Shown here: piece by piece, positions 7,093 to 36,177 of the stretch
How the letters are laid out: every line of letters begins with the position of its first letter
Numbering within the stretch: position 1 is the stretch's first letter
Origin: Acidobacteriota bacterium
GTDB taxonomy: Bacteria; Acidobacteriota; UBA6911
Assembly: GCA_012729555.1 (NCBI GenBank)
Contig: JAAYCX010000096.1
Location: forward strand, 1-36,177
Reading direction: 5' to 3'
DNA: 36,177 nt
The notes under the pieces: generated by a model
The model's input: only the letters and a program-made list of their open reading frames with translations
Database searches by the model: none
Told to the model about the DNA's origin: nothing
Program-made: the position numbers and the translations under genes

Positions 7093-7887
7093 CTAGTTGG
7101 GAAGAATGACGAGGCGCCCCCCTTCGACGCGGATGTCCTTGATGTAGGGGGGGAGCTGGAGTTTTTCCCGGTTTGCGGGGGAGCCGAAGATGCGGTCGGC
7201 GGCGGCGCGGAGCACCGCGGAGGAGAGGGGGAGGGAACCCAGCTTTCCGCGGGTCGGCTCGAGCGTCAGGTGCCCGGCCTCGTTATGGAGTTTACCTTCC
7301 AGTTCGAGCGACTGGTTTTTGCCGTAGAGATCGACGACGGCGTAGACCCTGAGGGAGTCCGCGAGGAGCTCGATCTTGACGTCGCGCACGGTGGAGCGGA
7401 CCTCGTCGAGTTCGGAGCTCCCCTCGGCAAGGGCCGTGGCCGCGTCGTTGACGACCCCGACGATCGATTCGGGGGTGTGATCGGAGGGGGAGAAGCCCCC
7501 GGGCCTGGAAAGGGCCAGGTTCTCCTCGAGCCAGCCGTTCAGCTCCCCTTCCTCGAGGATCAGGGGCGCCCCGGTGCCGTAAAGGGCGGCGGAGCGGAAG
7601 GCGCGGACCTTTTGCTCCGCTTGTTTTGCGGCCTCGGGCGTGACCTCGATCTCGGGCGGGGGGGAGTTTTTCAGGACGAGGACGAGGGTGAGGAGGGCCA
7701 GGGCGGGCACCCCCCAGCGCGCGATCCTGAAAAGTCTGCGGAAGAGTGTGGGGGGGGTGTGGGCGATGTCGACCGTGCTTGAGCTCGAGTGTGGGGCAGC
7801 ATGTCCGCGCCAGCGGGCGAAGACGAGGCCGCAACGGGGGCATTCGGGTCCGATCTCCTGGCTGAAGCCGCATTTGGGACAGATCAT
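7093..7887 (-). CDS. Zinc-ribbon membrane-anchored protein of unknown function
   Basis: This 264-aa protein begins with a zinc ribbon (CPKC at 3-6, CPRC at 16-19). A basic, proline-rich linker and one membrane helix (about 57-70) follow, then a soluble domain of about 180 residues that is probably extracytoplasmic. That domain has an acidic helix with EEGELNGWLEENLALS, a VRDVKIELLADSLRVYAVVD strand pair and a terminal LPPYIKDIRVEGGRLVI. The same order of elements occurs in the protein at 34719-35381, so the two look like distant paralogues. The fold may be a lipid-binding TULIP/DUF2993-like one, but that is speculation. GGAG six bases before ATG supports the start. It is separated by 86 bp from the sigma-54 activator gene downstream. 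Confidence 0.7.
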   Translation of the reverse strand: MICPKCGFSQEIGPECPRCGLVFARWRGHAAPHSSSSTVDIAHTPPTLFRRLFRIARWGVPALALLTLVLVLKNSPPPEIEVTPEAAKQAEQKVRAFRSAALYGTGAPLILEEGELNGWLEENLALSRPGGFSPSDHTPESIVGVVNDAATALAEGSSELDEVRSTVRDVKIELLADSLRVYAVVDLYGKNQSLELEGKLHNEAGHLTLEPTRGKLGSLPLSSAVLRAAADRIFGSPANREKLQLPPYIKDIRVEGGRLVILPN

Positions 7888-8022
7888 CTTGGTCTCCAGG
7901 GGTTGCCTGCCTTTTTGATGTATCGGTTAAGGATCGGCCGGGGGAGGGCGCAAATGCAAGGTTTATTGCGTGGGCGCACAATTTTCCGGAAAGGGGGTAT
8001 AATCGGTCCTTGGGAGGGGGGA

Positions 8023-8763
8023 GTGAATTATCGCCATCATAAAATCGAGACCGAAAACCGCAACCTGCTCGACTTCATCCGCCAGCTGGCCGAAGGGAAG
8101 TTCCTGATCCCGACCTTCCAGAGGCAGTTCGTCTGGGAGCCGGGGGACATCGTCAGCCTCTGGGACAGCCTCTACCGCCGCTACCCCATCGGCAGCATCC
8201 TCTGCTGGAACACCACGATCCGGCTCCACGTGCACCGCAGAATCGGGGGCTTCTTCGTCCCCGAAAACGGCGGGGAGGGGGCGGGGCACCACGTCTACAT
8301 CCTCGACGGGCAGCAGCGCTCCACCTCGCTCGTGGCCTCGTTCTACGGCGGGGCGGGGAGGGTCAAGGAACACTACGACGTCGACCATACCGTTCATTTC
8401 GACCTGACCCGGGGGGAGTTTTTCCTGGAGCAGGACTACTTCCGGCACCGGTGGGAGTCCGACCCGGCGTTCCTTTTCCCGGTGCGGGAGGCGCCCGGGC
8501 TCCCCGACGACTACGTCGCGGGGCTTACGGGGATGAAGGGGTACGGGCGGAAGGCGGTGGAGAACTTCGCCCAGCTTAAATACATGTTTTCGGAGTACCC
8601 GGTGCCGCTCATCCACCTGCGGGGGTTCAACATCGCCGACGTCTGCTCCATCTTCGAACGGATGAACCAGTCGGGCAAGCGTCTGGAGAACCTCGACATT
8701 CTCATTGCCCGCGGATTCAGGAACTACGCCACCGTGGTCGAGGAAGACTTTCCGATCTCCTGA
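8023..8763 (+). CDS. DUF262-domain protein, apparently C-terminally truncated
   Basis: 246 aa from GTG 8023, chosen because GGGAGG at 8012-8017 precedes it and an exact TATAAT lies at 7998-8003; frame open upstream of this is probably not coding. Residues about 10-225 form a DUF262 (ParB/Srx-like, GmrS-type) domain: FLIPTFQRQFVWEPGDIVSL, YPIGSILCWNT, the NTP-site motif ILDGQQRSTSLVAS, and IFERMNQSGKRLENLDILIA. Such domains occur in type IV restriction enzymes and other defence-linked proteins. Full-length members usually carry a further helical or DUF1524 HNH nuclease part. Here the frame stops shortly after the DUF262 core and no continuation was found in other frames downstream. It may be a remnant or a stand-alone NTP-dependent sensor. 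It has no defence-gene neighbours. Confidence 0.8.
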   Translation: MNYRHHKIETENRNLLDFIRQLAEGKFLIPTFQRQFVWEPGDIVSLWDSLYRRYPIGSILCWNTTIRLHVHRRIGGFFVPENGGEGAGHHVYILDGQQRSTSLVASFYGGAGRVKEHYDVDHTVHFDLTRGEFFLEQDYFRHRWESDPAFLFPVREAPGLPDDYVAGLTGMKGYGRKAVENFAQLKYMFSEYPVPLIHLRGFNIADVCSIFERMNQSGKRLENLDILIARGFRNYATVVEEDFPIS

Positions 8764-9762: not shown

Positions 9763-11637
9763 TCAGAATTCGCGCAGCGATTCCTGGATCCCCTTGTGGG
9801 TTTCGTACCAGAAACCGAGCGCCGCCTCCATCTTGTCCTCGGCGAACCGGTCGAGCCAGGAGAGGAGTTCGGGCCCCTGCTCCCCTTCGACATCGCGCTT
9901 GCGCAGCAGGAAGCGGTGGACATAGTCGGCCGAGCGTTCCGATTCCCAGAAGGTCGATGAGTTGCGGCAGTGGATGCGGGCCGCGGTCATGGCCGCGCAT
10001 CCGAGGTAGGCGTCCTTCATCCCGTAGAGAGCGTCGATGATCTCGGGCGCCATCTCCTCGGCCCACTGGCGGTGGAAACGGCAGATGCCGAGGTTGTCGA
10101 GCACCAGTTCGGCGACCATGCGGTCGGCGTTTCTGCGCCCCAGTTCGCGCGGGGGGACGAAATCGTAGCCGTAATACATGTAGTACTTCCCCATGATCGA
10201 CATCGGGGAGAGCACGCCGGGGGTCCAGTACTGGTTGGGCACCATCCACCCCTTGCGGGCGAAGGCGGTGTAGACGAAGCGGTCCAGGGCCTCCTTCCCC
10301 TTCAGGCGGGAAAGGCGGCGGGCGAATTTGCGCGCCCCCCCTGACAGGTCCACGAGCCCCCTCTTTTCGATGATGGCGTCGAGCAGCCCGATGCCGATGC
10401 CGGCGTTATGCGCGCTGTCGGCGACCACGTCGAAGCCCGCGGGATCGAAGACGGGGCGCCGGTCCACGCCGAATTCCTCCGGCTCCGCGAGCCCTTCGGC
10501 CAGGCACTCCATCATCCAGGAGACCACCCCCCCGGCCGAAATGGCGTCGAACCCCAGCATGTCGGCGTGGTGGGTGAGGCGCTCGGCCGCCCGCTGGTCG
10601 AACACCCCCGCCAGCGGCCCCAGCGCCTGGTAGGGCTCGTAGTCCTTCTTGAACTCCCCCCGCAGCTTCTTGCACACGGCCGAGCACGGTTCCCCGCACG
10701 TAGTCTGATGCCTGGGCTGAATCGTCTCCTCGTTGAACTGCCGGAGGTAGTGGCCGAGCACGAATTCCCGGTGGATGCGCACCCGCTCCTCTTCCGACAT
10801 GTAGATGCTGCGGTAGTTGAAGGAGAGCATGCGGCCGCCCAGGGTGGCATAGTTGACGCCGAAGGTGCCCCCGGTCTCGAACCTCGGTTCGAACCGGTAT
10901 TTGGTCGTCGCCTCCATATCCTTGGCCAGCAGTTTTTTCTCGTATTTGTGCTGGAACCATTCGTCCGCCACCTTCCGGTCCCGGAAATCGTCGTCGAGCA
11001 CCGACCCGCCGTAGATGACGGCGGCGATCCCGTGCTGCGCGAGGAGCTTCGACCCGAACCCGCCGCGTCCGGCCCAGGTGTCGGCGGGACTCATCTCCCC
11101 CCGCCTGACCGGGGCGGAGCAGAGGGCGCCCATGTCGGTCGTCAGGGCGGCGGGGCCGACCGCGAGCACGCGGGGATCGTTTTCATACCGGCCGCCGAAA
11201 CGCCCCAGGGCGTAATCCATCATGGCGTACACGCCGCCGCGCCCCTCGCGCCACACCCCGGCGGCGTCGACCGGCTCGATCTCCACCTCGACCTCCTCTC
11301 CGTGGCAGCGGTTGAGGTAGAGGATCGAAGGGGAGGGCGCCCGGCCGGTGATCGAGAGCATGTTGAGCCCCAGGTTTTCGAACACCAGCCCCGCCCCCCC
11401 CATCGAGGAGACGAAAAACCCGCCCCAGCAGGGGGAAAAGCCGGTGACGATCAGCCGGTTGGACCCCGGGAAGATGGAGCCGGCCAGGAGCCCGATGCCG
11501 AAGTTCAGGCTGTTCTGCTTTCCCGCCAGGTGCAGCCCCAGGTCGACGGGGCCGAAGAAATCCCCGACCCGGTATCGGTTCATGCGGTAGAAGGAGGTCG
11601 AGGCGTCGACGACCAGCACTCTCTGGTGGGAATCCAT
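9763..11637 (-). CDS. Aldehyde:ferredoxin oxidoreductase family protein (tungsten enzyme)
   Basis: This 624-aa protein has the usual AOR length. The family oxidises aldehydes to carboxylates, or the reverse, at a bis-pyranopterin tungsten (rarely molybdenum) centre next to one [4Fe-4S] cluster, with ferredoxin as partner. Visible features are the N-terminal domain with NFGIGLLAGSIFPGSNRLIV, TWAGRGGFGSKLLAQHGIAA (about 187-206), the cluster-binding Cys group at 314, 318 and 322 (CGEPCSAVC), the conserved GFDAISAGGVVSW, and the fourth cluster Cys at 519 in DNLGICRFH. The Cys spacing is CX3CX3C instead of the CX2CX3C of archaeal AOR. It is translated 6 bp after an NCS2-type permease, with GGAG overlapping the permease stop region, so the two form an operon. 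The substrate cannot be told from sequence. Confidence 0.88.
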   Translation of the reverse strand: MDSHQRVLVVDASTSFYRMNRYRVGDFFGPVDLGLHLAGKQNSLNFGIGLLAGSIFPGSNRLIVTGFSPCWGGFFVSSMGGAGLVFENLGLNMLSITGRAPSPSILYLNRCHGEEVEVEIEPVDAAGVWREGRGGVYAMMDYALGRFGGRYENDPRVLAVGPAALTTDMGALCSAPVRRGEMSPADTWAGRGGFGSKLLAQHGIAAVIYGGSVLDDDFRDRKVADEWFQHKYEKKLLAKDMEATTKYRFEPRFETGGTFGVNYATLGGRMLSFNYRSIYMSEEERVRIHREFVLGHYLRQFNEETIQPRHQTTCGEPCSAVCKKLRGEFKKDYEPYQALGPLAGVFDQRAAERLTHHADMLGFDAISAGGVVSWMMECLAEGLAEPEEFGVDRRPVFDPAGFDVVADSAHNAGIGIGLLDAIIEKRGLVDLSGGARKFARRLSRLKGKEALDRFVYTAFARKGWMVPNQYWTPGVLSPMSIMGKYYMYYGYDFVPPRELGRRNADRMVAELVLDNLGICRFHRQWAEEMAPEIIDALYGMKDAYLGCAAMTAARIHCRNSSTFWESERSADYVHRFLLRKRDVEGEQGPELLSWLDRFAEDKMEAALGFWYETHKGIQESLREF

Positions 11638-18862: not shown

Positions 18863-21800
18863 ATGAGCGTACATCAGGGAAAACTCAAGGAGGGCTCCAT
18901 TGTCGCCCGGCGGTACCGGGTCGAAGGGATTCTGGGTTGCGGTACGGCGGGGGATGTCTACGCCTGCCGGGACCTTTGCGACGGTTCGGGCGATCTGGTC
19001 CTCCGGATGCTGGGCCCGGTGGATGCGACCGGGGAAGAGGGGCATGCCCTTCGGGCCACGTTGTCGATGCTGGTGCGCCTGCGCCATCCGGGCCTGGTTC
19101 CCGTCCTCGATTTCGGGATCGCCGAGGATTCGGGCGCGCTGTTCCTGACCGAGGAGCGGGTGGAGGGGGCGAGCCTGCGGGCGGCCGCCGGGGGGCTGAC
19201 CCCGGAGAAGGCGCTCGCCCTGGGCGCCGAACTGGCGGCCACCCTCCACCACCTGCACGGCAGGGGGATCGTGCACGGGGATCTGACGTCCTCGACCATC
19301 CTGCTGGTGGGGGAGGGGGAAGAGGCGCGCCCCGTCATCCTGGGCTACGGAGTGCGGCGGTTCCTCCCCGATGACGGCGATCGCCTCTCCCCGTCCTGCG
19401 CCGCTCCCGAGCTGCTGCTGGGCGGGCGGCCCACGGCCCGGTCCGACATCTACGCCCTGGGTATCCTGCTCTACCTGCTGATCTGCGGGCGTTTCCCCTT
19501 TGAAGACGACGACGAGGGGTTCCTGATCCAGAAGCAGCTCCAGGCGGGGGTGGACCTGCGCCCGATCGAGAGCCTGCGCCGGGGCGGCGCCCTGGCCCTG
19601 CTCCTGGGCCGGATGCTCGAAAAAGACCCGGAAAACCGGACGATAACGGCGCTGGAGGCGGCTGCCGCCATCGGGGGCCTCGTCCGCTCCGACGGGCCGG
19701 TCTGGGAGCCGGAGTGCCGTTTTTCCGCCGCCCCTTTCGTGGGGAGGGAGCGCGAAATGCAGCGGGTCCAGGCCCGCGCCCGCAGGGTGAGGGAAAGCGG
19801 GCGGGGATGGACCCTTTTCCTGGCGGGGGAGGCGGGGGCCGGGAAGACCCGGTTCATGGAGGAGATGAGAAGCCGGGCGCTGCTCGAGGGGTGGCACGTG
19901 GCCGAAGGCGCCTGCGGGGTCCGGGCGGAGTCGGGCTACGCCCCCTATCGGCAGGTCCTTTCGCAACTGGACCCGGAAGGGGAGACCTCCCTTTTCGACC
20001 AGGCGGTCCGGACCGGTTCCTCGGACCCGGGCGACGGGGCGTCGGGTTTCGCCACGGGGCAGTTCCAGGATCAGCTGACCCGGGAACTGGTGCGGCGGCT
20101 GGGAGACACCCCGACGCTCCTGCTGCTGCACGATTTTCACAATGCCGACCGCTCCAGCTGCGCGGTGCTCGACTACCTGGGGGCCGATATCCACTCCCAC
20201 CCGGTCCTGGCCTGCGTCAGTCTCCGTTCGGGGGAGGAATCGAGCGGGTACCTGGAGGCGGTCATGGAAACGGCCGTGCGCAACGAAAGGGGGGAAGTCC
20301 TCACGCTCGAGCCCCTGGACCGGGAGAGCCTCCGAAGGATGGCCGTGGGGATCACCGGCTCGAACGATCTGCCCGCGGCCCTGAACGACTGGCTCTACCG
20401 CGCCGTCGGGGGGAACCCCCTCTTCCTGGAGCAGATGTTGAAGCATCTGCTGGAACAGGGGGCGTTGCGCCGCAGCTCGGGGGTATGGAAGTTCTTCGAG
20501 GGGAGCGCAAAAGACCTCGAGGTGCCGGCCGAGGTCGGGTCGGTTCTGACGAAGCGGCTGCAATCCCTGCCCCCCCCGGCAAGGAGCCTGGCGGACTGGC
20601 TGGCGCTGCGGCACCGACCCGTGGCCGCAGACTCCCTCGCCCCGGCCATGTCCTGGAGCCCCGGCCGGGTGGCGGGGGCGGTGGCGGAGCTCAGGCGGCG
20701 CCAGATGGTGCGGGTGGAGAGCGCGGGCGACCGGGAAACGGTCGACTTCAGCCACGAGCTCATTCCCGAAGTCGTGCGGCGGAACCTGCCGAAAGGGGCC
20801 GCGCCCCGGATGCATCGGAAGATCGCGGAGGGGATATTGCGGGAGAAAGGGGGTGCCGGGCGCTTCCACGAGCTGGCGCACCACTACATCGAGGGGAGGG
20901 CGGGCGTCGCTTCCATCCCGACGGTACTGGCCTCCGCGGCCCGGTCGCGGGCCGAATTCGCGCATGAAAAGGCCCTGCGCTGCTACGAGCACGTCTTCAG
21001 CCGCCGCAACGGGCTGACGGACGAGGAGGCCTGCCGCGCGGCGATCGATGCCAGCGACACCATGTTCGCCCTGGGGATGGCCGCCCGGGCGCTCGCCCTC
21101 CTCAGGAAGATCCTCGGCCGGCACCGGTCGGTGGGGCCGGAAGTGCGTGCGCGCATGTACATGCAAATGGCCCTGGCGTGCCAATATATCGGCAACGTCC
21201 GGATGCAGGAAGCCTACTGCAGGAAGGGGCTGGATGTGTTCGACCGCCATCCGGCCCCCGGCCCCAACCTGACCCGGGCCATGCTCTGGGCCGAACTTGC
21301 CTTCATCGCCGTACTCCAGTCCAGCCCCCGCAAGGGCCTGAGGTGCCTGGACAAGGCGCTCGCGGCCTGTCCTGAGAAGAACGCCACCGCCTTGAGGGGC
21401 CGGATTCAGAATTTGTATGCTTCGCTTTATTGTGTTGCGGCGGATCTAAAAAACGCTCTTGCTGCCAGCAAAAGAGCCACTTCGATAATGAAGGATTCCA
21501 GTGAATCTTTCTTGGCATGCTCTGCAATGTCGACAAATGGCTTGATTCTTATGAGACTGGGAAGATTTGGTTTGGCCCTCGATAGGCATGAGCAAGCTGT
21601 AGAATTGAGCGAGAAGAGCCGATCCTTTGTTATCCTTTCACAATCTCTTGGGAACAAAGTAGAGTGCCTCTGCCGAATGGGTCAGCTACAAAACGCATTG
21701 ATCGCCGAGGATAAAGCAGCAAAAGCTGTGGAGCATGCAAACAATCCCGCAATACGATTGGCTGTTGTAACGATAATGGCTGAGGTTCGATTCGCATCCG

Positions 21801-24226
21801 GGGATTATCGCAAGGCTTGCGAATTGATCTCGATGATGTTTCAGGATGGCAATAAGAATCTCTCCCCTTTCAATATCGGACATGCGCACTACGTTGCAGC
21901 GGAGTTAAGCTTTTACCTGGGCCGGCTGCCGGAAGCCCTGCGACGTATCGAGGAACTGTCCAGATACGGCAGCGCCGAGGCCCCCCTCTATGAGCATGAA
22001 CTGGCGGAGGGGCTTCGGGCGCGTATCATGGCCGAGCAGGGGCGGGGGGAGGAAGCGCTGAAAAGGCTGAGGGCGCTCGATCGCGCGGTGACCCGGAAAC
22101 ACTGGCCCTACCAGATGTGCATCATTCGGCTGCATCTCGGCGAGGTCCAGTTTCAATGTGGGAGGCCTGTGGAGGCTGAACGATATGGCAGAAACGCCCT
22201 CAGGCTGGCCCGCGGCATGGGGGCCGGTCCCCTGATGCAGAGGGCTCGTCTCCTTCTCGGATCGATCTATTCCCCCTGCCGCGGACGGTCGGGGGAAGCC
22301 GTCACGGACAGGAACAAGGCAGTTGAGCAACTGGACCTGTGTATCCGCGGCGACGAATCCTTTGCACATCATGAATCCCTCTGGCGCGCCCATGCGGAAT
22401 TGAGCCTGCTTTATGGCGAAGAGGGGGACCAGAGGCGAAGTTACGAGTGCGCTGAAAAGGCTTATGCGCACCTCTGCAGGCTGGAGGGCCAGCTCCCGCC
22501 GGAGGCGCTGGTTTCCTTTTACACCGTCTTCGGCCGGAGCCGGCTGAAACTGGAACTCCTTGGCGCCATCGAAAACGGGCGGACGCAGCGGCCGATCCAG
22601 GTCGGTTTCGAGGGACCGGGCTCCGGAGACCGGAACGCTCGTACGCTGCAGCGCCTGAGCGCGGTGATCACTTCCTCGCAGGACCTGGACAATCTTCTGG
22701 AGGCGCTTCTGGAGCAGCTGCTGCCGGCGATCGGGATGACGCGGGCGTTCGTCTATCTGTGCCAGGAATCCTCCGGGAGACTGCGGCCTGCAAAGGGGAG
22801 GGGGATCGAAAAAGTCAACCTGACCGAGCCCGGTTCGGTCCACCGGGAGGTCGTGGAGACCGTGTTCCACGAAGAGATCCCCGTCATCAGCGCCGATTGC
22901 CGGCGGGATCCACGGATCAGGGCCCCCCGGGGGGGCGGGGGGAGATTGATGTGTGCCCCCTTGAAGGCTCCCGGCAGGGTGATCGGGGTCCTGTATGCCG
23001 AGCATGACGCCCCTTCGGACGGCATTTCCGAGCCGGTGATCAATCTCTTTGCCGCCGCCTGCTCCCTGACGGCACTGGGGATCGCAAACCTTCTCACGCG
23101 GCCGCGTCCGCCTGCAATCCATATCCCTCCGGCCGGTGCGCGGTCCGATGCGAAGGACCCCTATCCCGAGATCGTAGGAAAGAGCCCGGCGATCTGTGCC
23201 CTGAAAGTGCAGATCGGGTCGGTTGCCGCCTCGCCGCTCGACGTGTTGATCACCGGGGAGAGCGGCACTGGAAAGGAACTGGTGGCGCGCGCCATTCATC
23301 GGACGAATCCCGGAAAGCGCGGCAAGTTCTTATCGGTGGATTGCGGCGCCCTTTCGGAGTCGCTGGTGGAATCGGAGCTGTTCGGCTTTCGCCGGGGCGC
23401 CTTCACGGGGGCCTTGGAGGACAGGCCGGGGTGTTTTGAAGCCGCCGATGGGGGAGTGCTTTTCCTGGATGAGTTCAGCAATCTGCCGTTGACGACTCAG
23501 GTGAAATTCCTCCGGGTGATACAGGAACGGGAGGTGCGCCGGATCGGCGAAATGCATACCCGGAAATTGGATATCCGCATCATCACCGCTTCCAACCGCA
23601 TCCTCCTGGACGAAGTGCGCGCGGGCCGCTTTCGGGAGGACCTTTACTACCGGATCAAAATCGTGCAGATCCACCTCCCTCCCTTGCGCGAGCGCAGGGA
23701 AGACATTCCGCTCCTCATAGACTGGTTTCTCGAAATGTGCGCGAAGCAGAAGGGTTTTCGCAGGCACGTGGGCTCCAATGCCATGGACCTGCTCCTCCGC
23801 TATTCCTACCCGGGGAACGTGCGCGAGTTGGGGGGGATGATTCAGGGAATCTATTATAACGGGAACGATCCCGTCATCGATGTCGGGGAGCTGCCCCCGG
23901 AGGTGCTCTGCGGACGGTTTTCCGGACCCTTGGCCGATCCGGATCCGGCCGAGCGAATCTATCGCGCCATCCTCGAAGGGCAGGGGGATTTCGACGGACT
24001 GGTCAAAGCCCCGTTTCTTCTTCACCGGATGGGCGCCGCGCTGGTGAGCGACATCATCGGCAAGGCACTGGCGGAAACGAACGGCAACTACAGGATGGCG
24101 TTGAGGCTTCTCCGGGTTCCCGATCGGCGCTACACCTCCACCCTGCAGTTTCTCAAGCGGAACGGGTGCTACCTGCCCTACCGGTCTTTTCGAAAAAAGG
24201 GGGGAGACGGGGACAGCGATTCCTGA
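18863..24226 (+). CDS. Pseudokinase-AAA-TPR-GAF-sigma-54 activator fusion, giant regulator
   Basis: 1787 aa; GGGAGGAAGG precedes the ATG. In order: (1) residues 19-270, a Ser/Thr kinase fold with a Gly-rich loop (LGCGTAGDVY), APE (181-183) and SDIYALGILLY. Usual catalytic residues are replaced: the VAIK Lys is R48, the HRD loop reads HGDLTSST (Lys to T142, Asn to T145), and DFG is GYG (161-163). (2) About 291-560, an AAA_16/STAND-like ATPase with Walker A GEAGAGKT (322-329) and LLLLHDFHNAD as Walker B. (3) About 700-1215, TPR-like helical repeats. (4) About 1260-1410, a GAF domain. (5) About 1435-1690, a sigma-54 AAA+ domain with GESGTGKE, GAFTGA and VLFLDEF. (6) A C-terminal helix-turn-helix-like region. 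It probably integrates small-molecule and protein signals to open sigma-54 promoters; the targets are unknown. It converges with the HD-GYP gene 21 bp away. Confidence 0.88.
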   Translation: MSVHQGKLKEGSIVARRYRVEGILGCGTAGDVYACRDLCDGSGDLVLRMLGPVDATGEEGHALRATLSMLVRLRHPGLVPVLDFGIAEDSGALFLTEERVEGASLRAAAGGLTPEKALALGAELAATLHHLHGRGIVHGDLTSSTILLVGEGEEARPVILGYGVRRFLPDDGDRLSPSCAAPELLLGGRPTARSDIYALGILLYLLICGRFPFEDDDEGFLIQKQLQAGVDLRPIESLRRGGALALLLGRMLEKDPENRTITALEAAAAIGGLVRSDGPVWEPECRFSAAPFVGREREMQRVQARARRVRESGRGWTLFLAGEAGAGKTRFMEEMRSRALLEGWHVAEGACGVRAESGYAPYRQVLSQLDPEGETSLFDQAVRTGSSDPGDGASGFATGQFQDQLTRELVRRLGDTPTLLLLHDFHNADRSSCAVLDYLGADIHSHPVLACVSLRSGEESSGYLEAVMETAVRNERGEVLTLEPLDRESLRRMAVGITGSNDLPAALNDWLYRAVGGNPLFLEQMLKHLLEQGALRRSSGVWKFFEGSAKDLEVPAEVGSVLTKRLQSLPPPARSLADWLALRHRPVAADSLAPAMSWSPGRVAGAVAELRRRQMVRVESAGDRETVDFSHELIPEVVRRNLPKGAAPRMHRKIAEGILREKGGAGRFHELAHHYIEGRAGVASIPTVLASAARSRAEFAHEKALRCYEHVFSRRNGLTDEEACRAAIDASDTMFALGMAARALALLRKILGRHRSVGPEVRARMYMQMALACQYIGNVRMQEAYCRKGLDVFDRHPAPGPNLTRAMLWAELAFIAVLQSSPRKGLRCLDKALAACPEKNATALRGRIQNLYASLYCVAADLKNALAASKRATSIMKDSSESFLACSAMSTNGLILMRLGRFGLALDRHEQAVELSEKSRSFVILSQSLGNKVECLCRMGQLQNALIAEDKAAKAVEHANNPAIRLAVVTIMAEVRFASGDYRKACELISMMFQDGNKNLSPFNIGHAHYVAAELSFYLGRLPEALRRIEELSRYGSAEAPLYEHELAEGLRARIMAEQGRGEEALKRLRALDRAVTRKHWPYQMCIIRLHLGEVQFQCGRPVEAERYGRNALRLARGMGAGPLMQRARLLLGSIYSPCRGRSGEAVTDRNKAVEQLDLCIRGDESFAHHESLWRAHAELSLLYGEEGDQRRSYECAEKAYAHLCRLEGQLPPEALVSFYTVFGRSRLKLELLGAIENGRTQRPIQVGFEGPGSGDRNARTLQRLSAVITSSQDLDNLLEALLEQLLPAIGMTRAFVYLCQESSGRLRPAKGRGIEKVNLTEPGSVHREVVETVFHEEIPVISADCRRDPRIRAPRGGGGRLMCAPLKAPGRVIGVLYAEHDAPSDGISEPVINLFAAACSLTALGIANLLTRPRPPAIHIPPAGARSDAKDPYPEIVGKSPAICALKVQIGSVAASPLDVLITGESGTGKELVARAIHRTNPGKRGKFLSVDCGALSESLVESELFGFRRGAFTGALEDRPGCFEAADGGVLFLDEFSNLPLTTQVKFLRVIQEREVRRIGEMHTRKLDIRIITASNRILLDEVRAGRFREDLYYRIKIVQIHLPPLRERREDIPLLIDWFLEMCAKQKGFRRHVGSNAMDLLLRYSYPGNVRELGGMIQGIYYNGNDPVIDVGELPPEVLCGRFSGPLADPDPAERIYRAILEGQGDFDGLVKAPFLLHRMGAALVSDIIGKALAETNGNYRMALRLLRVPDRRYTSTLQFLKRNGCYLPYRSFRKKGGDGDSDS
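21410..21910. other. AT-richer patch inside the TPR region of the giant regulator gene
   Basis: Base composition drops abruptly from roughly 70 % G+C to about 45 % (109 of 240 bases in four 60-base rows counted by hand) and returns as abruptly near 21910. The reading frame stays open across both edges. The encoded residues, about 850-1015, are TPR-like helices. The patch looks like an exchanged or recombined segment. Confidence 0.65.
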
Positions 24227-24247: not shown

Positions 24248-26704
24248 TCAGGGGCGCTGGGTGAAATCAATGACGTTATCGCCCTGCGGCAGTTCAGCTG
24301 ATGTGGATTTGACCGCTTCCAGGGCGGTATGCAGGAGGGTCATGATGGTGGCGCCGTCCCTGGGATGGACGGCGATGCCGGCCTTGAAGTCGACGGCGAT
24401 CCCCTGGACCGCATTGGTGACCTCCCGCCTGATTTGCTGCTTCAACCGGTCGGCGCAGCGGATGGCCTGCTCTTCCCGCATCCCGGGGAGGAGCGCCACA
24501 AACCCCTGGTTCCCGTAACGCACCAGGGTGTCCGTCCCCCGGAGTTCGGGCTTGATGCAGCCGGCGATCCTTCGGAGCAGGGAGTTGCCCTGATGACCGC
24601 CGTAGAGGCGGGTGATCTGGTTCAGATTCCTGATTTCCAGGTAGATGAGCGCGAGCGGAGCCTTGGTGGTTGCTGCCGCGGCAAGGAGTTGCGGGCCGAT
24701 GGCGGCCAGGTAGGAGACCCGGGGGACCTGGGTCGTGGGATCGAGCAGATCCGGGTCCTCCGATCCCTTGCGCTTTTTGGACTCGGCAATCAGGGGCGCG
24801 ATCAGGTCGGCCAGCATCTGCAGGTGGTCCTGGTGCTCCTGGGTATAAAAGCCCTTTTCCTGCGCGTAGAGGGAGAGGGTGCCCAGGGGCTCGTCCTCGT
24901 AGACCACCGGGACCGCGAGGGCGTCGGCGAGTGAGCTGAAATCCCCCGCCAGCCCTGTGAAATCGAGCGCCGGACCGGTGTTGCGCATGGGGCGGCGGTA
25001 GGCTGCCACCCAGCCGCTGATCCCCATTCCCATTTCCATGCCATGTCCACGGAGATGCTGGGAATGGCGGCCGGTCGCGGAGGCGGCTTCAAGGCGGCCT
25101 TTTTCATTCCCTAGATAAAGCGCACAGGTGCTGAAGGGCAAAAAAGGCTCCAGCTGGCTGAGCACCACCGGAAAAACATCCTTCAGTTCAAAGTAGCCCG
25201 ACATGGTGTTGCAGAATTCGGCGATGCGGACGAATTCCGCCGGCAGATCGGCGGCTGGCGTAGACAACAACCGGGCTGCGGTACCGGACTGATCAGGCTG
25301 GAAGTATTTGCGGAAGGAGAGTTCGGGGGCGTTGGACGATTCCCGAATGGCTTCTTCCTCCAGTTCGTGGATGTGCTCCACCAGCAACTGCACCAGTTTG
25401 GGGTCGAAAAAGGTGCCCGATTCGGATCGCAGAACCTCGAGGGCTTCTTCGGTAGACATGGCGAGCTTGTACGGCCTGGAGAAGCGGATGGCGTCGAAGG
25501 CATCCGCGACCGACAGGATCCGGCCTCCAAGCGGAATGTCTTCTCCCTTCAACCCGTCGGGATACCCGTTCCCGTCCCATCGTTCATGGTGGCAGCGTAC
25601 ATACCGGGCCACCGGGAAGGGGAACCGGACCTGCTGCAGGATTTCGTCACCTGCGGCGGCGTGCATTTTGATTTTTTCGAACTCCTGGCTCGTAAGTTTT
25701 CCGGGCTTGTTCAGGATGAAGTCATCCACCGCCAGCTTGCCGATGTCATGCAGGAGCGCGCCGGTCTCTATCGCCTTCAGTTCATCGGGAGCCGTGATGC
25801 CGATGAACCTGGCCAGCCCCATTGCGTACACCCTGACCCTGCGGATATGACCGTAGGTGGTCTGGTCCTTGGCGTCCACGGCCAGAGCAAGGGATTCTAC
25901 AGTCCTTAAATATAAATCTTCCTGCTCTTTAAGGTGATTTTCCGCCTCCAGGATCCGGGCGTTGTTGGCGATGATGCGGGAACGGTTCTGCTGGTGGTAT
26001 CCCCAGACGAGTCCCAGCAGCGGTGCCAGGGCAAGGGGAAGGAACTCCTGCCACCGGTGCAGGATCACGAAGGAGGTGGCGATCCCCGCCGAGGCCGAGA
26101 ACTCCATCGCCAGCGGCATCATGGTTTTGGCCCAGAATCTTACAATGTTTTCGTTTAAGGACCAAGAAATTGCAACGGCTACCAAACTGGAATTCGCTGC
26201 AAAGTATGTAATGGTTAAAATGGCGGATCCAACCACAATATCAAGGATCTGATCGTGACCCCCAATCATCCTGTGATAGACAAAGCTGTAAAGCCAAGCT
26301 ACACAAATTGTACTGGATAGATTAAATACTATCTGATACGTGGGTATTTTGGGGCTTTTGGCGAATACCGAAATCAAAAAAGTGTGGCAGAAGGTGGCTA
26401 CAACGCATGGGGCAATCCCATACATCATGCCAATCGCCATAATGTATGCATCCCCAATGCTTATAGTAGTTTTTGCGGAATCTATGGAGATCTTGAGAGA
26501 AACAGAGATGATGACAAGGGCGAGAAATAATAGCCAGCCGGGACTATAGGATTCAGTGACAATTTTCCCCAAGGTCCATATAACTATAGGCATAGCTATA
26601 ATGGACAGGAGTATTATGTATGCTTTTAGCTTTTTTGGAAGATCAGCCCATTTCATGGATTTCTGCCGCATATCATAAGCGATCATATCGACAGCTGAAC
26701 CCAT
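24248..26704 (-). CDS. Membrane HD-GYP phosphodiesterase with GAF and degenerate GGDEF domain
   Basis: 818 aa. Residues 28-235 hold several membrane helices, a MASE-like sensor of unknown type. A linker helix (245-270) leads to an HD-GYP domain at about 270-450: HDIGK (319-323), HHERWDGNGYPDG (372-384) and ADAFDA (400-405), so metal and c-di-GMP-hydrolysis residues look complete. A GAF domain covers about 490-640. The C-terminal 650-805 is a GGDEF fold in which the signature is GNQGF (731-735), so it cannot make c-di-GMP. The inhibitory-site motif RGTD (722-725) is kept at the normal 5-residue distance. It probably hydrolyses c-di-GMP under control of a membrane signal and nucleotide binding. 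Residues 1 to about 190 are encoded by AT-rich DNA, unlike the rest. No good SD was seen before ATG 26704. Confidence 0.88.
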   Translation of the reverse strand: MGSAVDMIAYDMRQKSMKWADLPKKLKAYIILLSIIAMPIVIWTLGKIVTESYSPGWLLFLALVIISVSLKISIDSAKTTISIGDAYIMAIGMMYGIAPCVVATFCHTFLISVFAKSPKIPTYQIVFNLSSTICVAWLYSFVYHRMIGGHDQILDIVVGSAILTITYFAANSSLVAVAISWSLNENIVRFWAKTMMPLAMEFSASAGIATSFVILHRWQEFLPLALAPLLGLVWGYHQQNRSRIIANNARILEAENHLKEQEDLYLRTVESLALAVDAKDQTTYGHIRRVRVYAMGLARFIGITAPDELKAIETGALLHDIGKLAVDDFILNKPGKLTSQEFEKIKMHAAAGDEILQQVRFPFPVARYVRCHHERWDGNGYPDGLKGEDIPLGGRILSVADAFDAIRFSRPYKLAMSTEEALEVLRSESGTFFDPKLVQLLVEHIHELEEEAIRESSNAPELSFRKYFQPDQSGTAARLLSTPAADLPAEFVRIAEFCNTMSGYFELKDVFPVVLSQLEPFLPFSTCALYLGNEKGRLEAASATGRHSQHLRGHGMEMGMGISGWVAAYRRPMRNTGPALDFTGLAGDFSSLADALAVPVVYEDEPLGTLSLYAQEKGFYTQEHQDHLQMLADLIAPLIAESKKRKGSEDPDLLDPTTQVPRVSYLAAIGPQLLAAAATTKAPLALIYLEIRNLNQITRLYGGHQGNSLLRRIAGCIKPELRGTDTLVRYGNQGFVALLPGMREEQAIRCADRLKQQIRREVTNAVQGIAVDFKAGIAVHPRDGATIMTLLHTALEAVKSTSAELPQGDNVIDFTQRP

Positions 26705-26746
26705 AAAATTTACGAAATCCTCTCGTCCGGTGGGTGAGGGGCTCGA

Positions 26747-26780
26747 GGAAGGCAGGCCGATATGACTCGGCCTGCCTTCC
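26747..26780 (-). terminator. Perfect 14-bp hairpin upstream of the HD-GYP gene
   Basis: GGAAGGCAGGCCGA (26747-26760) and TCGGCCTGCCTTCC (26767-26780) pair fully around a 6-base loop. No T run follows on either strand, so it may be a pause, attenuation or processing hairpin, or an RNA 3' end. It ends 42 bases before the HD-GYP start codon on the transcribed strand. Confidence 0.55.
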
Positions 26781-26795
26781 GGTTAGCCAGTGTCC

Positions 26796-26945
26796 CTAGG
26801 GCTGGGCGACAGTCCAGAACACTCCAGGCGTTTCACGGCTTTCGAGAACTTCAATTTCAGTCTGCATTTGAGTCTCCACTTGGTTTTGAGTGAGCCAATG
26901 ATTCTGTTTCACCACCGGCTACAGCCAAAGAATCGCACTTGCCAT
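26796..26945 (-). other. Mini-ORF with strong SD and an in-frame amber codon
   Basis: AAGGAGG sits 6 bases before ATG 26945. The frame reads MASAILWL, then TAG (26919-26921), then runs open again for 40 codons (PVVKQNHWLTQ... to ...ETPGVFWTVAQP) until TAG at 26796-26798. It may be an 8-residue leader peptide, a small gene broken by a nonsense mutation, or a second small ORF from GTG 26912. The sequence is not a family I recognise. The strong SD is the main evidence that anything here is translated. Confidence 0.35.
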
Positions 26946-27397
26946 AGCTACCCTCCTTTTCAAGCTTGGGAGTGGCAATTGACAATCTCCGATTAAAAGC
27001 ACAAACACACCCCCCCTTGGCTTTTGAAACCAAAAGGTCTGCGTTTGCAACACAATGAGGTCGAACACAGGATGGTTCAGCGCCCATGCCGCCGACCGGA
27101 TAAACTGCTAATGCATCCGTCCGGTCTGCCGATAAATCCGAACAGGATCTTTCGGCAAAAAACACAACCTGCAAGGCAGAGCCTTTTTCGACCCCAGGTT
27201 AGCGCTCTTACTCAGATTGGTAGTAGCACCGGGTTCCGCTTGAACTTTCTGTCAATGGACCAAGCGCTCTTCAAGGTGAGAGAGCTATTCGAGAAACTTC
27301 ACTTTCCCCACGGATCCGCCAAACCCGGAAGCCATTTAGCGCCCATGCCATAACTTCCGGCAACGTCTCCGCTTACGACAAACTTAGTGATGGCGCC

Positions 27398-27427
27398 AAT
27401 CTATCAGCACTTTTCGAGCACTGTCAA
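27398..27427 (-). promoter_or_regulatory. Sigma-70-type promoter reading into the 820-bp stretch
   Basis: On the minus strand: perfect TTGACA (27427-27422), an 18-bp spacer, then TAGATT (27403-27398). Predicted transcription starts near 27391 and runs toward the mini-ORF, the hairpin and the HD-GYP gene. Confidence 0.5.
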
Positions 27428-27524
27428 CCATTTTCCGCGTGGTTTATTTAATTTTTTATTGGGGCTTCCGGGCCGGAAATCTTGGCTTCAGAGGATCTTC
27501 GGGACGTGTCCGGCCGGCGGGGAA

Positions 27525-29927
27525 TCAGGGGAGGTATTCCCAGAACTCGGTTCGGATCCATCGAACCGCCCGGCGGAAGGCGATGGCGAAGACGGTGCGC
27601 TTGCCGCAGAGGATCTTTCCGACCCCCGTCATCCCCGATTTCAGGGTGCCGTCGGTGTTGGTCAGCTCTCCGTGGACGAGCACCGTGCGGTCGGTTCCGG
27701 TGGTGGCGGCCACCGGCGCAATGCTTTTGACATGAGCCTCGTACCAGCGGCCCGGGTACCCCCGTACCTTGAGGCTGATCGGCATCCCGACGCTCACCTC
27801 CCCGATCTCCTTTTCGGGGACCGGCATCTCGATGAGCATGCTCCCTTCGCTGACGATGTCGCAGAACGGGTCCCCCTTCTCGAGGTAATCCCCGATCCGG
27901 TTCTGCAGGTGGGCGGTGGCGACGATCCCCTCTATGGGGCTGCGTACCTTGAGCTTTTCCCTCTGCCGCTCGAGGATGCCGAGCTTCTCCTCCAGCTTCG
28001 ATACCTGGGATTCGCTCGCCCGGACCGATTCCTTTCGGGCGCCCGCCAGCAGGATATTGAGCTGGCTCTCGGCCTGGGCCAGCTCCTTGCGCTTGATGTC
28101 CCGGTTCCGGTCCGTCTGCTCTTCCAGGATGCTCAGCTGCCCCCTGGCTTCCGCCAGTTCCTTCTGCTGGACCTCGAAGGCGGTCCGGTCGCGGTCGGCC
28201 TCGATCCTGGCTATGAGGCCGGAATTCAGGAGGCTCAGGGTCCTTTCATAATTCAGCTGGGCGTTCTTCAGCTCCGATTCCCGCTTGGCGATAGTCTCCC
28301 GGAGCAGGGCCCTTTCCTGATCGATCCGTGAGACGTTAACCAGCTCGGCCCGCTTGGTTTCCACCTGCCGCCGGGCGTTTTCGATCTCCTCCGGGCGGCT
28401 CCCCGCCTTGAGCAGGTCGAGCGACGCCCGCTGCGACGCCAGCTCCCCCCTGGTTTCCTCGTAGCTGTTGGACAACTCCAGATTTTCAATTTCCGCAAGG
28501 AGTTGCCCCGCCTGCACGCGGTCCCCCTGGTCCACGTGGATGCGCATCAGGTTCCCGTCCACCTGGGGGGACACCGAGACTTTCTGTGCGGCCGTGATGG
28601 CGAACTCGCCCGAAATCTTGAGCTGCCAGGGGAGGAACCCCGCCAGGAGCGCCAGCAGCAGGAGACCCATGTAGATCAGCGGCTTTTTCCTGATTCGGAT
28701 GATCATGCCTGTCAATAGCTTGCGCGATGTCTCCACGTTCTCTTTCCGGGTGATCGGGATGGTGGCGAGAAAAAGGGCCGAGGTCGCGAGGATGCCCCAG
28801 AAGCGGTATTCCTGGATGATCCATCCCCCTATGCGGTGGAGCATGACGGCGACGAGGACGACAGTGAACAGGGAGGAGGCCAGGCCGTACCAGACCAGGA
28901 TCCGGCGTTCTCTCCGGTTCGGTCCGTCCTCCGCCGCCGGCGTCCCGGTGACGAATCCCACCACCCGGTTTTTCAGGTAGGCGAGGGCCTTGGGCCTCAG
29001 GTTGGGGACCTGGACGTAGTCGCTCAGCATGTAATAGCCGTCGAGCCGGATCAGCGGGTTGAAGTTGAAGAGGGTCTGAATCCCCGAAAAGGCGATGATG
29101 ATGAGGCACACCTGGCTGGCCAGGGTCTCAGGCGCCAGGATCCTCCAGGCGATGGTGGCCAGGGCCCATATGAAGATCTGGATGTAGCCTCCCGCCACCG
29201 AGACCAGGAGCCGTTCCCGCTTCCCCAGCATCCAGGCGTCGCTGACGTTGCAGTAGAACGCCGGGATGAAGTAGAGGAGCATGACGCCCATTTCCTCCAC
29301 CCTGCCGCCGTGGTGTTTGAGCGTGAGCCCGTGCCCGAACTCGTGGATGGTGACGACGGTGAAGACCACCAGGAGGATCAGGGGGATGGAGTAGAGCGAA
29401 AAGAGCGACCCCATGGAGACGAAGAGCGAGCGGGCGTGCACGATGGAGAGGATGCCGGCGACGACGGCGGCGCCCCAGAAGACGGCCGAAAACGCGGGGG
29501 TGAAGAAAAAACGGAGCCTCTTTTCCAGCAGGGTCAGCGTCCGGTCGGGGTTGAAGGCGTGGAGCTTGATCGACAGCAGGTTTTTGAAGCTCCCCTTCGA
29601 GCCCCGGGCCACGCCTTCGAGCCGTGTCCAGCAATAGGGGTGATCCAACAGGAGCAGGTGGCGCAATTTCCCGACGAAGTCCTCCAGCTGGTGCTCCAGG
29701 ACTTCGGCCCGGTGTTTTTCGGACGCCTCGGCGGCGATGGCGGCCAGGTCCCGGCTGCCGTCCAGAAGCTCGAGCACCGTTGCCTGGACGGGGGTGAAGC
29801 GGTAGAAGCGGCGGGTGACGGGGTCTTTGACGATGACGCCGGAGGTGCCTTCGGGCGAGATCTCGAGATCCGTTCGCAATTTCTCCAGCGCTGTTGCCAT
29901 CCCGGGCCTCGGCGAGCTGTTGGACAT
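27525..29927 (-). CDS. PqqD-like/M50 metalloprotease/HlyD fusion membrane protein
   Basis: 800 aa. Residues about 25-95 resemble PqqD, the peptide-recognition domain of RiPP pathways (VKDPVTRRFYRFTPVQATVL, LLDGSRDLAAIA). Residues 145-440 form a multi-helix M50 site-2-protease domain with the zinc motif HEFGH (195-199) and LDGYYMLSDY (Asp 296 as third ligand). From about 445 a HlyD-type periplasmic adaptor follows: a biotinyl-lipoyl half (VSPQVDGNLMRIHVDQGDRV), a long coiled coil (about 485-665) and the closing lipoyl/beta-barrel part. This is the 'putative peptide zinc metalloprotease' type, linked with peptide export and maturation. No ABC transporter, radical-SAM enzyme or obvious precursor gene is adjacent. 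ATG 29927 lacks a clear SD. ATG 29900, with GAGG 6 bases upstream, is a credible alternative start. Confidence 0.87.
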   Translation of the reverse strand: MSNSSPRPGMATALEKLRTDLEISPEGTSGVIVKDPVTRRFYRFTPVQATVLELLDGSRDLAAIAAEASEKHRAEVLEHQLEDFVGKLRHLLLLDHPYCWTRLEGVARGSKGSFKNLLSIKLHAFNPDRTLTLLEKRLRFFFTPAFSAVFWGAAVVAGILSIVHARSLFVSMGSLFSLYSIPLILLVVFTVVTIHEFGHGLTLKHHGGRVEEMGVMLLYFIPAFYCNVSDAWMLGKRERLLVSVAGGYIQIFIWALATIAWRILAPETLASQVCLIIIAFSGIQTLFNFNPLIRLDGYYMLSDYVQVPNLRPKALAYLKNRVVGFVTGTPAAEDGPNRRERRILVWYGLASSLFTVVLVAVMLHRIGGWIIQEYRFWGILATSALFLATIPITRKENVETSRKLLTGMIIRIRKKPLIYMGLLLLALLAGFLPWQLKISGEFAITAAQKVSVSPQVDGNLMRIHVDQGDRVQAGQLLAEIENLELSNSYEETRGELASQRASLDLLKAGSRPEEIENARRQVETKRAELVNVSRIDQERALLRETIAKRESELKNAQLNYERTLSLLNSGLIARIEADRDRTAFEVQQKELAEARGQLSILEEQTDRNRDIKRKELAQAESQLNILLAGARKESVRASESQVSKLEEKLGILERQREKLKVRSPIEGIVATAHLQNRIGDYLEKGDPFCDIVSEGSMLIEMPVPEKEIGEVSVGMPISLKVRGYPGRWYEAHVKSIAPVAATTGTDRTVLVHGELTNTDGTLKSGMTGVGKILCGKRTVFAIAFRRAVRWIRTEFWEYLP

Positions 29928-30039: not shown

Positions 30040-30083
30040 TCGCGGTTCAGGCTGGTAAAAGCGTAATCATGGAGGAACGGATG

Positions 30084-30914
30084 ATGTCGAAGAAAGCTCT
30101 GATGGTCCTTGCCGCACTGATTCTGATGTACGGGCTCGTCGCCTGCGGGAAGAAGGATGCCGAGCCGCAGGAAGAGGCGGCCGTGGAGCCGGCGGCGCCT
30201 GAAGTCGTGCCCGGGGAGATGGTCCTCATCCCGGAAGGGGAGTTCATCCTGGGGACGAACGACAAGGAATCGATCGCCTATCCCGAGCAGAAGGTCAACC
30301 TTCCCGCGTTCTGGATCGACAAGTACGAAGTCACCAACATGGAGTTCCTGGAGTTCTCCATCAAGAACAGCTACGCCGGTGAAGGGGCCAAGGAGGGGCG
30401 CGACTGGAGGCTTTTCTTCACGCCCGAAAAGGGGATGTTCCCCGTGGTCTATATCACCTGGAACGACGCGGACGCCTACTGCAAGGCGCAGGGGAAGAGG
30501 CTGCCGACCGAGGAGGAGTGGGAAAAGGCCGCCCGGGGCACCGAGGGGTTCATCTACCCCTGGGGGAACGAGTGGCAGGACGGCATGAGCAACACCTACG
30601 AATCGGGGCCGGCCAAGCCCGAGGCCATCGGGCAGTACAACGACGTGAGCCCCTTCGGGGTGCGTGACATGCTGGGGAACGTCCAGGAATGGACTTCCTC
30701 GTGGTATACCACCTACAAGGGAAACCCGAAGAGGGATCCGAAATCGGGCAAGACCCTGCGCGTGGTCCGCGGCCTCGCCTCCCGTTACCGCGGGAAGATG
30801 GGGCACCTGTACGACCGGGCGGCTCAGCCGCCGAGCGCGCTCTATGATTTCGGCTGCCGTTGCGCCAAGGACGCCACCCCCGAGGATGTCGCCCAGGCCG
30901 CCCAGGCCCGATAG
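30084..30914 (+). CDS. Lipoprotein with formylglycine-generating-enzyme-like (SUMF1) domain
   Basis: 276 aa from ATG 30084; GGAGGA at 30071-30076 lies at the right distance, so upstream in-frame ATGs are less likely. Residues 1-21 form a lipoprotein signal ending in a lipobox (LVAC, Cys 21), followed by an acidic Glu/Pro linker. Residues about 45-260 form an SUMF1/FGE fold: EMVLIPEGEFILGTNDKE, FWIDKYEVTNMEF, VYITWNDADAYCKAQGKRLP, TEEEWEKAARG, YPWGN and GVRDMLGNVQEWTSSW. The usual RGGSW is replaced by RGLASRY, and GCRC stands where GFR(C) is expected. There is no sulfatase nearby, so it is more likely a binding or structural member than a true formylglycine generator. Confidence 0.85.
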   Translation: MSKKALMVLAALILMYGLVACGKKDAEPQEEAAVEPAAPEVVPGEMVLIPEGEFILGTNDKESIAYPEQKVNLPAFWIDKYEVTNMEFLEFSIKNSYAGEGAKEGRDWRLFFTPEKGMFPVVYITWNDADAYCKAQGKRLPTEEEWEKAARGTEGFIYPWGNEWQDGMSNTYESGPAKPEAIGQYNDVSPFGVRDMLGNVQEWTSSWYTTYKGNPKRDPKSGKTLRVVRGLASRYRGKMGHLYDRAAQPPSALYDFGCRCAKDATPEDVAQAAQAR

Positions 30915-36136: not shown

Positions 36137-36177
36137 GGGCGGTTAGCTCAGCGGCAGAGCATCGGTCTTACACACCG
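36137..36177 (+). tRNA. tRNA-Val (anticodon TAC), 5' part only
   Basis: GGGCGGT acceptor strand (36137-36143), TA, D-arm GCTC/GAGC around AGCGGCA, then the anticodon stem TCGGT with loop CTTACAC and the start of ACCG. The loop centre gives anticodon TAC, valine. The window ends inside the 3' side of the anticodon stem, so the variable loop, T-arm and acceptor 3' strand are missing. Confidence 0.9.

Follow-up and report, generated by a model that had tools for sequence, protein, structure and literature searches.

The stretch described here covers 820 bases between two minus-strand genes, 27525-29927 (800 aa) and 24248-26704 (818 aa, HD-GYP), within a window of 36,177 nt, by which we mean the whole stretch of acidobacterial DNA that was analysed. 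In the named collection, the genomes nearest to that of the host are Acidobacteria MAGs, which places the host in the Acidobacteriota. The features of this locus, listed from the upstream gene to the neighbour beyond the downstream one, are as follows:

27525..29927, minus strand: RRE - M50 intramembrane protease - HlyD fusion protein, 800 aa, with HEFGH and LDG (domain matches and predicted RRE fold)
27398..27427, minus strand: sigma70-like promoter, TTGACA plus ATAGAT/TAGATT (scan and family comparison)
27195..27296, minus strand: conserved structured RNA element, ~100 nt (alignment, RNAalifold, pair counts, model R1)
26919..26945, minus strand: sORF1, MASAILWL, 8 codons, with Shine-Dalgarno AAGGAGG immediately upstream, conserved in relatives
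26796..26867, minus strand: sORF2, 23 codons, RRE-type leader MQTEIEVLESRETP followed by GVFWTVAQP, with a cut predicted after the Pro by analogy with daptides
26747..26780, minus strand: perfect hairpin with a 14-bp stem and a 6-nt loop, seen in the sequence 3′ of sORF2
24248..26704, minus strand: HD-GYP phosphodiesterase with a GAF domain and a degenerate GGDEF motif (GNQGF)
18863..24226, plus strand: Ser/Thr kinase - AAA - TPR - GAF - sigma54-activator regulator, a convergent, conserved neighbour

The HD-GYP homologue keeps its place in the gene order of relatives. The HD and GYP motifs are intact in all eight HD-GYP proteins checked, the window's included, and the GGDEF motif is degenerate in all five of the eight where the pattern located the site; by eye, the N-terminus of the window protein is hydrophobic. 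Past the HD-GYP gene, the sigma54-type regulator with its kinase and TPR parts is found in G000, G003, G005, G006, G007, G012, and G013. At the other end of the locus, 13 of the 15 family genomes contain a match along the length of the fusion gene, G002 and G010 being the exceptions; the copy in G011 has an in-frame TAA.

The original prediction for this stretch described a perfect TTGACA followed by TAGATT after an 18-nt spacer, and both hexamers are present, the TTGACA at 27427. A TTGACA occurs within ~230 nt of the fusion gene in 12 of 13 family loci (G011 being the exception), and inspection of these loci by eye places a -10-like hexamer 16-17 nt past it, a spacer that suits the listed relatives better than 18 nt; the promoter scan alone found one site versus 0.6 expected, which is within chance. 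The predicted dyads are also there (-80.1 kcal/mol over 231 nt, z -2.07, with 5 of 200 shuffles equally good), as is the 14-bp hairpin at 26747-26780, which has a perfect stem and no T-run and is absent from the terminator scan list. Because the same stem in G006 precedes TTTTTT, the simplest reading of this hairpin is that it terminates the peptide unit, its T-run probably having been lost in the window. It would then end that unit ahead of the HD-GYP gene, which makes it less probable that the leader belongs to the HD-GYP gene itself. An earlier suggestion that the stretch is the leader of a c-di-GMP gene is in this way weakened as to its target, while its link to c-di-GMP is supported from outside the window, by riboswitches in two related loci.

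No coding frame in the stretch had been considered convincing, a view that is overturned by two short minus-strand ORFs, 26919-26945 and 26796-26867, which have Shine-Dalgarno sequences and are conserved in relatives. The stretch encodes two very short conserved peptide genes, and hence it is not purely non-coding. The full product of sORF2 in the window is MQTEIEVLESRETPGVFWTVAQP, and its leader in the family follows MQT[ED]IE[IV]LExR[ED][TNA]P, a pattern found at 15 places in 10 of 40 genomes, all of them from the family, against 0 in the control. Among the 15 family genomes, G002 and G010 are without the locus, and in G001, G011, and G014 the contig ends before it. The cores that follow the leader are GVLWTIGQP (G006), VIVWT three times (G008), MILWA (G003), IVLWGWH (G007), GILWGGKGR (G005), MIVWY (G013), and SVLWI three times (G012), while the gene is truncated by the contig end in G004, G009, and contig C236 of G003; a further place, on contig C261 of G003, precedes HD-GYP and regulator genes and evidently represents the opposite end of this split locus. 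Tandem copies number three in G012, three in G008, and at least two in G003, and searching 60 relatives with the DNA of the stretch returned, besides the close matches that were expected, a ~70-base piece of G012 as three tandem repeats. Wherever the core is complete, which is so in eight family genomes, Trp occupies the fourth position past the leader Pro. The changes between relatives are biased to the third codon position, with 16 extra alleles versus 3 and 2 at the others (P 7e-5) in 10 of 12 rows, G001 being gapped and G011 left out since the bases aligned for it do not belong to sORF2; with the misaligned G011 row included, the counts are 20 versus 12 and 8 (P 0.02).

Upstream of sORF2, sORF1 belongs with the conserved genes of 8-10 codons, a size class that annotation mostly overlooks. 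Its versions in relatives include MASGILWL (G007, G009), MNKPGAILWL (G012), and MQKFGAILWL (G013), with two different AILWL ORFs in G011 (MRTLSAILWL and MFSAKAILWL) and a second copy 3′ of the sORF2 array in G008. The peptides end in [AG][IV][IL]W[LV], where Trp is the fourth of the last five residues, and all three stop codons occur among relatives. When aligned with no ORF filter, the last six codons carry eight extra alleles at the third position versus 1 and 2 (P 0.009) in 10 of 12 rows, G005 and G001 having no aligned ORF; the test over all nine codons is weak, with 11 versus 4 and 5 (P 0.04, and P 0.075 minus the G011 row). The last six codons also give a dN/dS of 0.06-0.07, a value that comes from ORFs chosen by regular expression, two of which were double-counted. 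A degenerate sORF1 pattern matches 11 of 396 Acidobacteriota genomes, 10 of which belong to the family, with 11 places at the locus and two stray places (G392 and a second G003 contig), compared with three matches in the reversed control; the pattern overlooks MRTLSAILWL in G011, which has no AGGA, and MKETYGVIWV in G025, which has a GTG codon.

Larger coding units in the stretch were rejected. Read-through of the sORF1 TAG into sORF2 would be in frame in the window, where the two starts are 78 nt apart, and is out of frame at the 79 nt of G004 and the 80 nt of G006, the same spacings at which a 39-aa GTG extension of sORF2 loses its frame. A 105-aa TTG ORF (26857-27174) has an open counterpart in G006, but its frame is broken in G004, and the differences from G006 (9, 11, and 6 at positions one, two, and three) have no third-position bias.

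The fusion protein provides the candidate processing enzyme for sORF2. Its M50 catalytic residues (HEFGH and LDG) are invariant in 20 sequences, including that of the window. All 20 match daptide_HExxH (NF041824), to which the window protein scores 227 bits, below the curated cut-off of 300, and 16 of them match NF058609, an M50 peptidase model of epipeptide type. The N-terminus in isolation scores 24.6 bits against Pfam PqqD, just above the cut-off of 23.4, while the match in the full-length window protein falls under the Pfam cut-off; at E 0.1, PqqD is matched by 13 of the 20 members. A model of this domain (pLDDT 85.7) finds as its best solved structures among the matches listed TbiB1 (Z 11.7, 2.2 Å over 83 residues), TfuB1 (Z 11.4), and PqqD (Z 9.0), its best structural matches being RRE domains with bound leaders. 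Foldseek places the same families on top at E 0.01 to 0.03 (best 0.011), with 0 matches at E 0.001 or better. An RRE fold for the N-terminal domain, residues 1-112, is supported by this modelling. The model of all 800 residues has a pTM of 0.45, and its domain arrangement was therefore left unused.

Between the promoter and sORF1 lies the RNA element, for which comparative folding of 10 family genomes produces a common hairpin with covariation. In the RNAalifold structure, a conserved unpaired UCUCGAAUA stands ahead of one long hairpin, made up of the stem GCUCUCUCA/UGAGYAAGAGC, UUG/CAA, and a variable outer hairpin. Single-sequence minimum-energy folds recover the hairpin in 7 of the 10 (not in G008, G003, and G012). 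Counted on the very alignment from which the structure was derived, 88.7% of cells are paired versus 82.6% in shuffles (0 of 500 as high) and ~40% when the structure is slid, and eight pairs have two-sided changes versus 3.6 in shuffles (2 of 500). All eight are in the outer stem; the basal stem is nearly invariant and has none. A model of the element, R1, finds one copy in each of 10 of 396 Acidobacteriota genomes at E 0.001, all of them its training genomes, and the element is not found in G005 and G013 though the locus is present there, with sORF2 but no sORF1 in G005 and with both ORFs in G013. We rejected the idea of a many-copy family, as the own genome holds one exact core, one-mismatch matches number 26 versus 26 in the reversed control, and R1 is empty beyond its ten training genomes (E 0.001, with stricter filters for over 40 genomes). 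The original prediction recognised no riboswitch or RNA family in the stretch, in agreement with Rfam, which gives 0 matches at the gathering score and, at E up to 10, only far sub-cut-off ones. The proposal of a structured non-coding RNA holds for this conserved leader outside Rfam and fails for the stretch as a whole, which also codes for two peptides.

The corresponding position in two distant relatives is held by c-di-GMP-I riboswitches. Loci L109 and L099 each contain two of these, which separate the fusion gene from a 10-codon ORF (MKETYGVIWV and MNETYGVIWV, respectively), arranged as a tandem RF01051/RF03167 in L109 and as RF01051 twice in L099. Following the 10-codon ORF on its 3′ side, L109 has a second peptide, MTENTALLNEIAQIEELEQKTAPSASAVVV, whose core SASAVVV is without Trp, and then an HD-GYP homologue with 31% identity to that of the window; in L099, from a gp5 Acidobacteria MAG, the contig stops after the 10-codon ORF. 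The window leader differs in that it has no match to RF01051 or RF03167 at E up to 10. It is possible, if somewhat unlikely in our estimation, that the element is itself a riboswitch, perhaps a new c-di-GMP-responsive one that replaces the c-di-GMP-I riboswitches of relatives. Its position between fusion gene and sORF1 is the place of RF01051/RF03167 in L109 and L099, RF01051 is found in none of the 15 family genomes yet in 7 of the 40 genomes searched, and both the hairpin architecture with its covariation and a weak terminator-like site 3′ of the element (27180-27168) are in keeping with such a role. However, the element is known from one operon only, the terminator scan gave two sites versus 1.3 expected, which is about chance, and an RNA bound by a protein would give an identical picture. 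A conserved orphan RNA at a site that c-di-GMP riboswitches occupy elsewhere makes its ligand directly testable. Tandem c-di-GMP-I riboswitches also stand ahead of genes resembling, by eye, those of subtilases in the class relatives G015 and G020 (L132 and L134), and L111 contains a match to group II intron D1-D4-4 (2834-2974, minus strand).

The leader could alternatively act together with sORF1, which would then be a regulatory leader peptide (a translational attenuator or arrest peptide) that controls sORF2 with the RNA element and yields no functional product. In favour of this are the extreme shortness of sORF1, its strong Shine-Dalgarno sequence, and its location, with the RNA element on one side and sORF2 on the other; G005, in which sORF2 is present, is missing both sORF1 and the element. 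Against this, the codon changes among relatives are mostly synonymous with the amino acids retained, the end of sORF1 resembles the sORF2 core, and the two AILWL ORFs of G011 and the extra copy after the G008 array would be odd for an attenuator. We think this role for sORF1 unlikely.

Leaders of the sORF2 type extend well beyond the family. Short ORFs with the leader motif, defined as [ILV][EQD]x[LI][EQ]x[RK]x(1,2)P plus a Shine-Dalgarno-like sequence, number 34 in 21 of 31 fusion-gene loci (400 kb) and 0 in 43 control loci (139 kb), a non-independent test as the motif was derived from some of the loci tested; outside the family's own locus, they occur at 12 of 19 fusion loci. The distant leaders are typically [ILV]ExLExRIAP and come from records of Acidobacteria, Aminicenantes, Gemmatimonadetes, and Rokubacteriota. 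The other 10 of the 31 loci (L083, L085, L103, L105, L112, and L113, plus the contig-ended L076, L086, L087, and L099) yielded no ORF with the motif, and a relaxed motif still finds none in L103, L105, L112, L113, and L085. Nine peptides with this kind of leader, compared with Pfam and NCBIfam, have 0 significant matches (best E 0.06), and no paper on an RRE-M50-HlyD peptide system is among the matches listed in open-access PMC. In essence, this is a very short peptide gene family that can be recognised by an [ILV]ExLExRIAP-like leader beside an RRE-M50-HlyD fusion. Precursor genes with the core TRAAIAMG stand in tandem beside the RRE-M50-HlyD gene in an uncultured-bacterium MAG (L106, three genes) and an Aminicenantes MAG (L107, four genes). 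At L105 and L113, where the leader-motif ORF is missing, the fusion gene adjoins related genes that by eye resemble a TAT-exported PLP enzyme.

Seen from these distant loci, the leader might be a tag by which small peptides of a structural or envelope kind, with no part in signalling, are exported or sorted. Several distant cores are Gly/Ser/His/Cys-rich or repetitive (L084, L104, and L110), and in L081 (G040:C116) the leader of a peptide beginning MSRKLKVEELESRIAPSVGLW is weakly similar to PF07595, a planctomycete extracellular motif (E 0.33), and is perhaps the same kind of export signal. The family of the window departs from this pattern, with cores of only 5 to 9 residues and a locus that sits among c-di-GMP genes, and a tag system is in our judgement an unlikely explanation for it.

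Daptides are among the closest described counterparts of the window system. They have an RRE N-terminally fused to an intramembrane (site-2) protease and several short precursors per locus, as the window does, and their leader motif ELExMEAP resembles the LExRxxP variant found in the window family (PMC10036551). Since daptides are cut after a conserved Pro (PMC10036551), cleavage after the leader Pro and a short Trp product are predicted here, and by analogy the family products would have 5 to 9 residues, the fourth of them Trp. Daptides differ in having an invariant C-terminal Thr (PMC10036551), whereas VIVWT is the only core of the window family with a final Thr, the last residue of the others being P, A, I, Y, H, or R. 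Further differences are that the window-type protease is additionally fused to HlyD, that the window family's cores have 5-9 residues, and that the RRE-M50-HlyD records are from Acidobacteriota and a few other phyla. Pfam finds no daptide oxidative decarboxylase, aminotransferase, or methyltransferase of that system among 28 window ORFs, the sole methyltransferase among those scanned being an rRNA methyltransferase, and neither a peptide ABC transporter nor a core-modifying enzyme is among them; the neighbour genes of relatives were clustered and are mostly without annotation. With no daptide-type modifying enzyme among the 28 window ORFs, we call the system RiPP-like and reserve the strict term RiPP.

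Epipeptides, with the precursor YydF/EpeX and the M50 protease YydH/EpeP, are a further counterpart. An M50 protease there cleaves and maybe exports a small peptide, which can be compared with the NF058609 matches of the fusion sequences, while the window differs in its leader and in having no radical-SAM epimerase among the ORFs scanned (PMC10885120). The enterococcal cCF10/iCF10 pair is used as a working analogy only. That system is not known to include an RRE or HlyD. It comprises two rival hydrophobic peptides processed by Eep, and it is like the proposed window system in that very short hydrophobic peptides are freed by a membrane metalloprotease and form a similar competing pair; unlike the window, it is a Gram-positive plasmid system in which cCF10 derives from a lipoprotein (PMC7117660).

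We consider it likely that the stretch encodes the peptides of a minimal RiPP-like system in a single unit, consisting of a promoter, a leader RNA, two peptide genes, and a terminator, with processing by the RRE-M50-HlyD protein and a secreted or envelope signal coupled to c-di-GMP. This reading draws on what the computations show, namely the genes and their conservation, the RRE fold, the RNA element, the riboswitches, and the gene order. Transcription would start at the conserved sigma70 promoter and pass through a leader RNA with the conserved hairpin element and the two peptide genes to the terminator. Through its RRE domain, the fusion protein would bind the sORF2 leader (MQTEIEILExRExP), allowing its M50 domain to cut past the leader Pro and release a hydrophobic Trp peptide of 5 to 9 residues, predicted to be GVFWTVAQP in the window and MILWA, VIVWT, SVLWI, or MIVWY in relatives, with the HlyD part assisting its passage through the envelope. 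sORF1, a leaderless peptide with nearly the same pentapeptide end (AILWL) as the sORF2 core, may be a cytoplasmic or competing partner of the released peptide. The leader RNA, whose place is filled by tandem c-di-GMP-I riboswitches in two distant relatives, probably tunes expression. With an HD-GYP phosphodiesterase encoded downstream, the released peptide could serve as a secreted or envelope signal coupled to c-di-GMP, and the locus as a whole suggests a hitherto undescribed small-peptide system tied to this messenger, in which peptide control of c-di-GMP becomes directly testable.

A stronger form of this proposal is a closed circuit, in which a leader riboswitch of a new class sets both peptide genes via c-di-GMP, the Trp pentapeptide cut by RRE-M50-HlyD is secreted, the leaderless mimic competes in the cell, and HD-GYP senses the peptide and lowers c-di-GMP; we regard this full circuit as quite improbable. 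That the stretch is instead a non-coding RNA or a decayed element whose short ORFs arose by chance would accommodate the promoter and hairpins of the original prediction, which are real, but is in the main refuted by the conserved ORFs (their patterns, codon-position bias, and the leader-motif ORFs) and is extremely improbable. Conservation in relatives, the lack of which was named at the outset as part of what would refute the original prediction, was found for the ORFs and the RNA element alike.

Elsewhere in the window, a plus-strand gene divergent from the fusion gene (30069-30914) encodes an FGE-sulfatase-domain protein with, by eye, a lipoprotein signal, and members of its cluster again adjoin the fusion gene in several relatives. 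An aldehyde ferredoxin oxidoreductase-like gene with AFOR_N and AFOR_C lies at 9763-11637 on the minus strand, a possible defence gene with a GmrSD restriction endonuclease N-terminal domain (PF03235) at 7789-8763 on the plus strand, and a tRNA at 36137-36177 on the plus strand is interrupted by the contig end.
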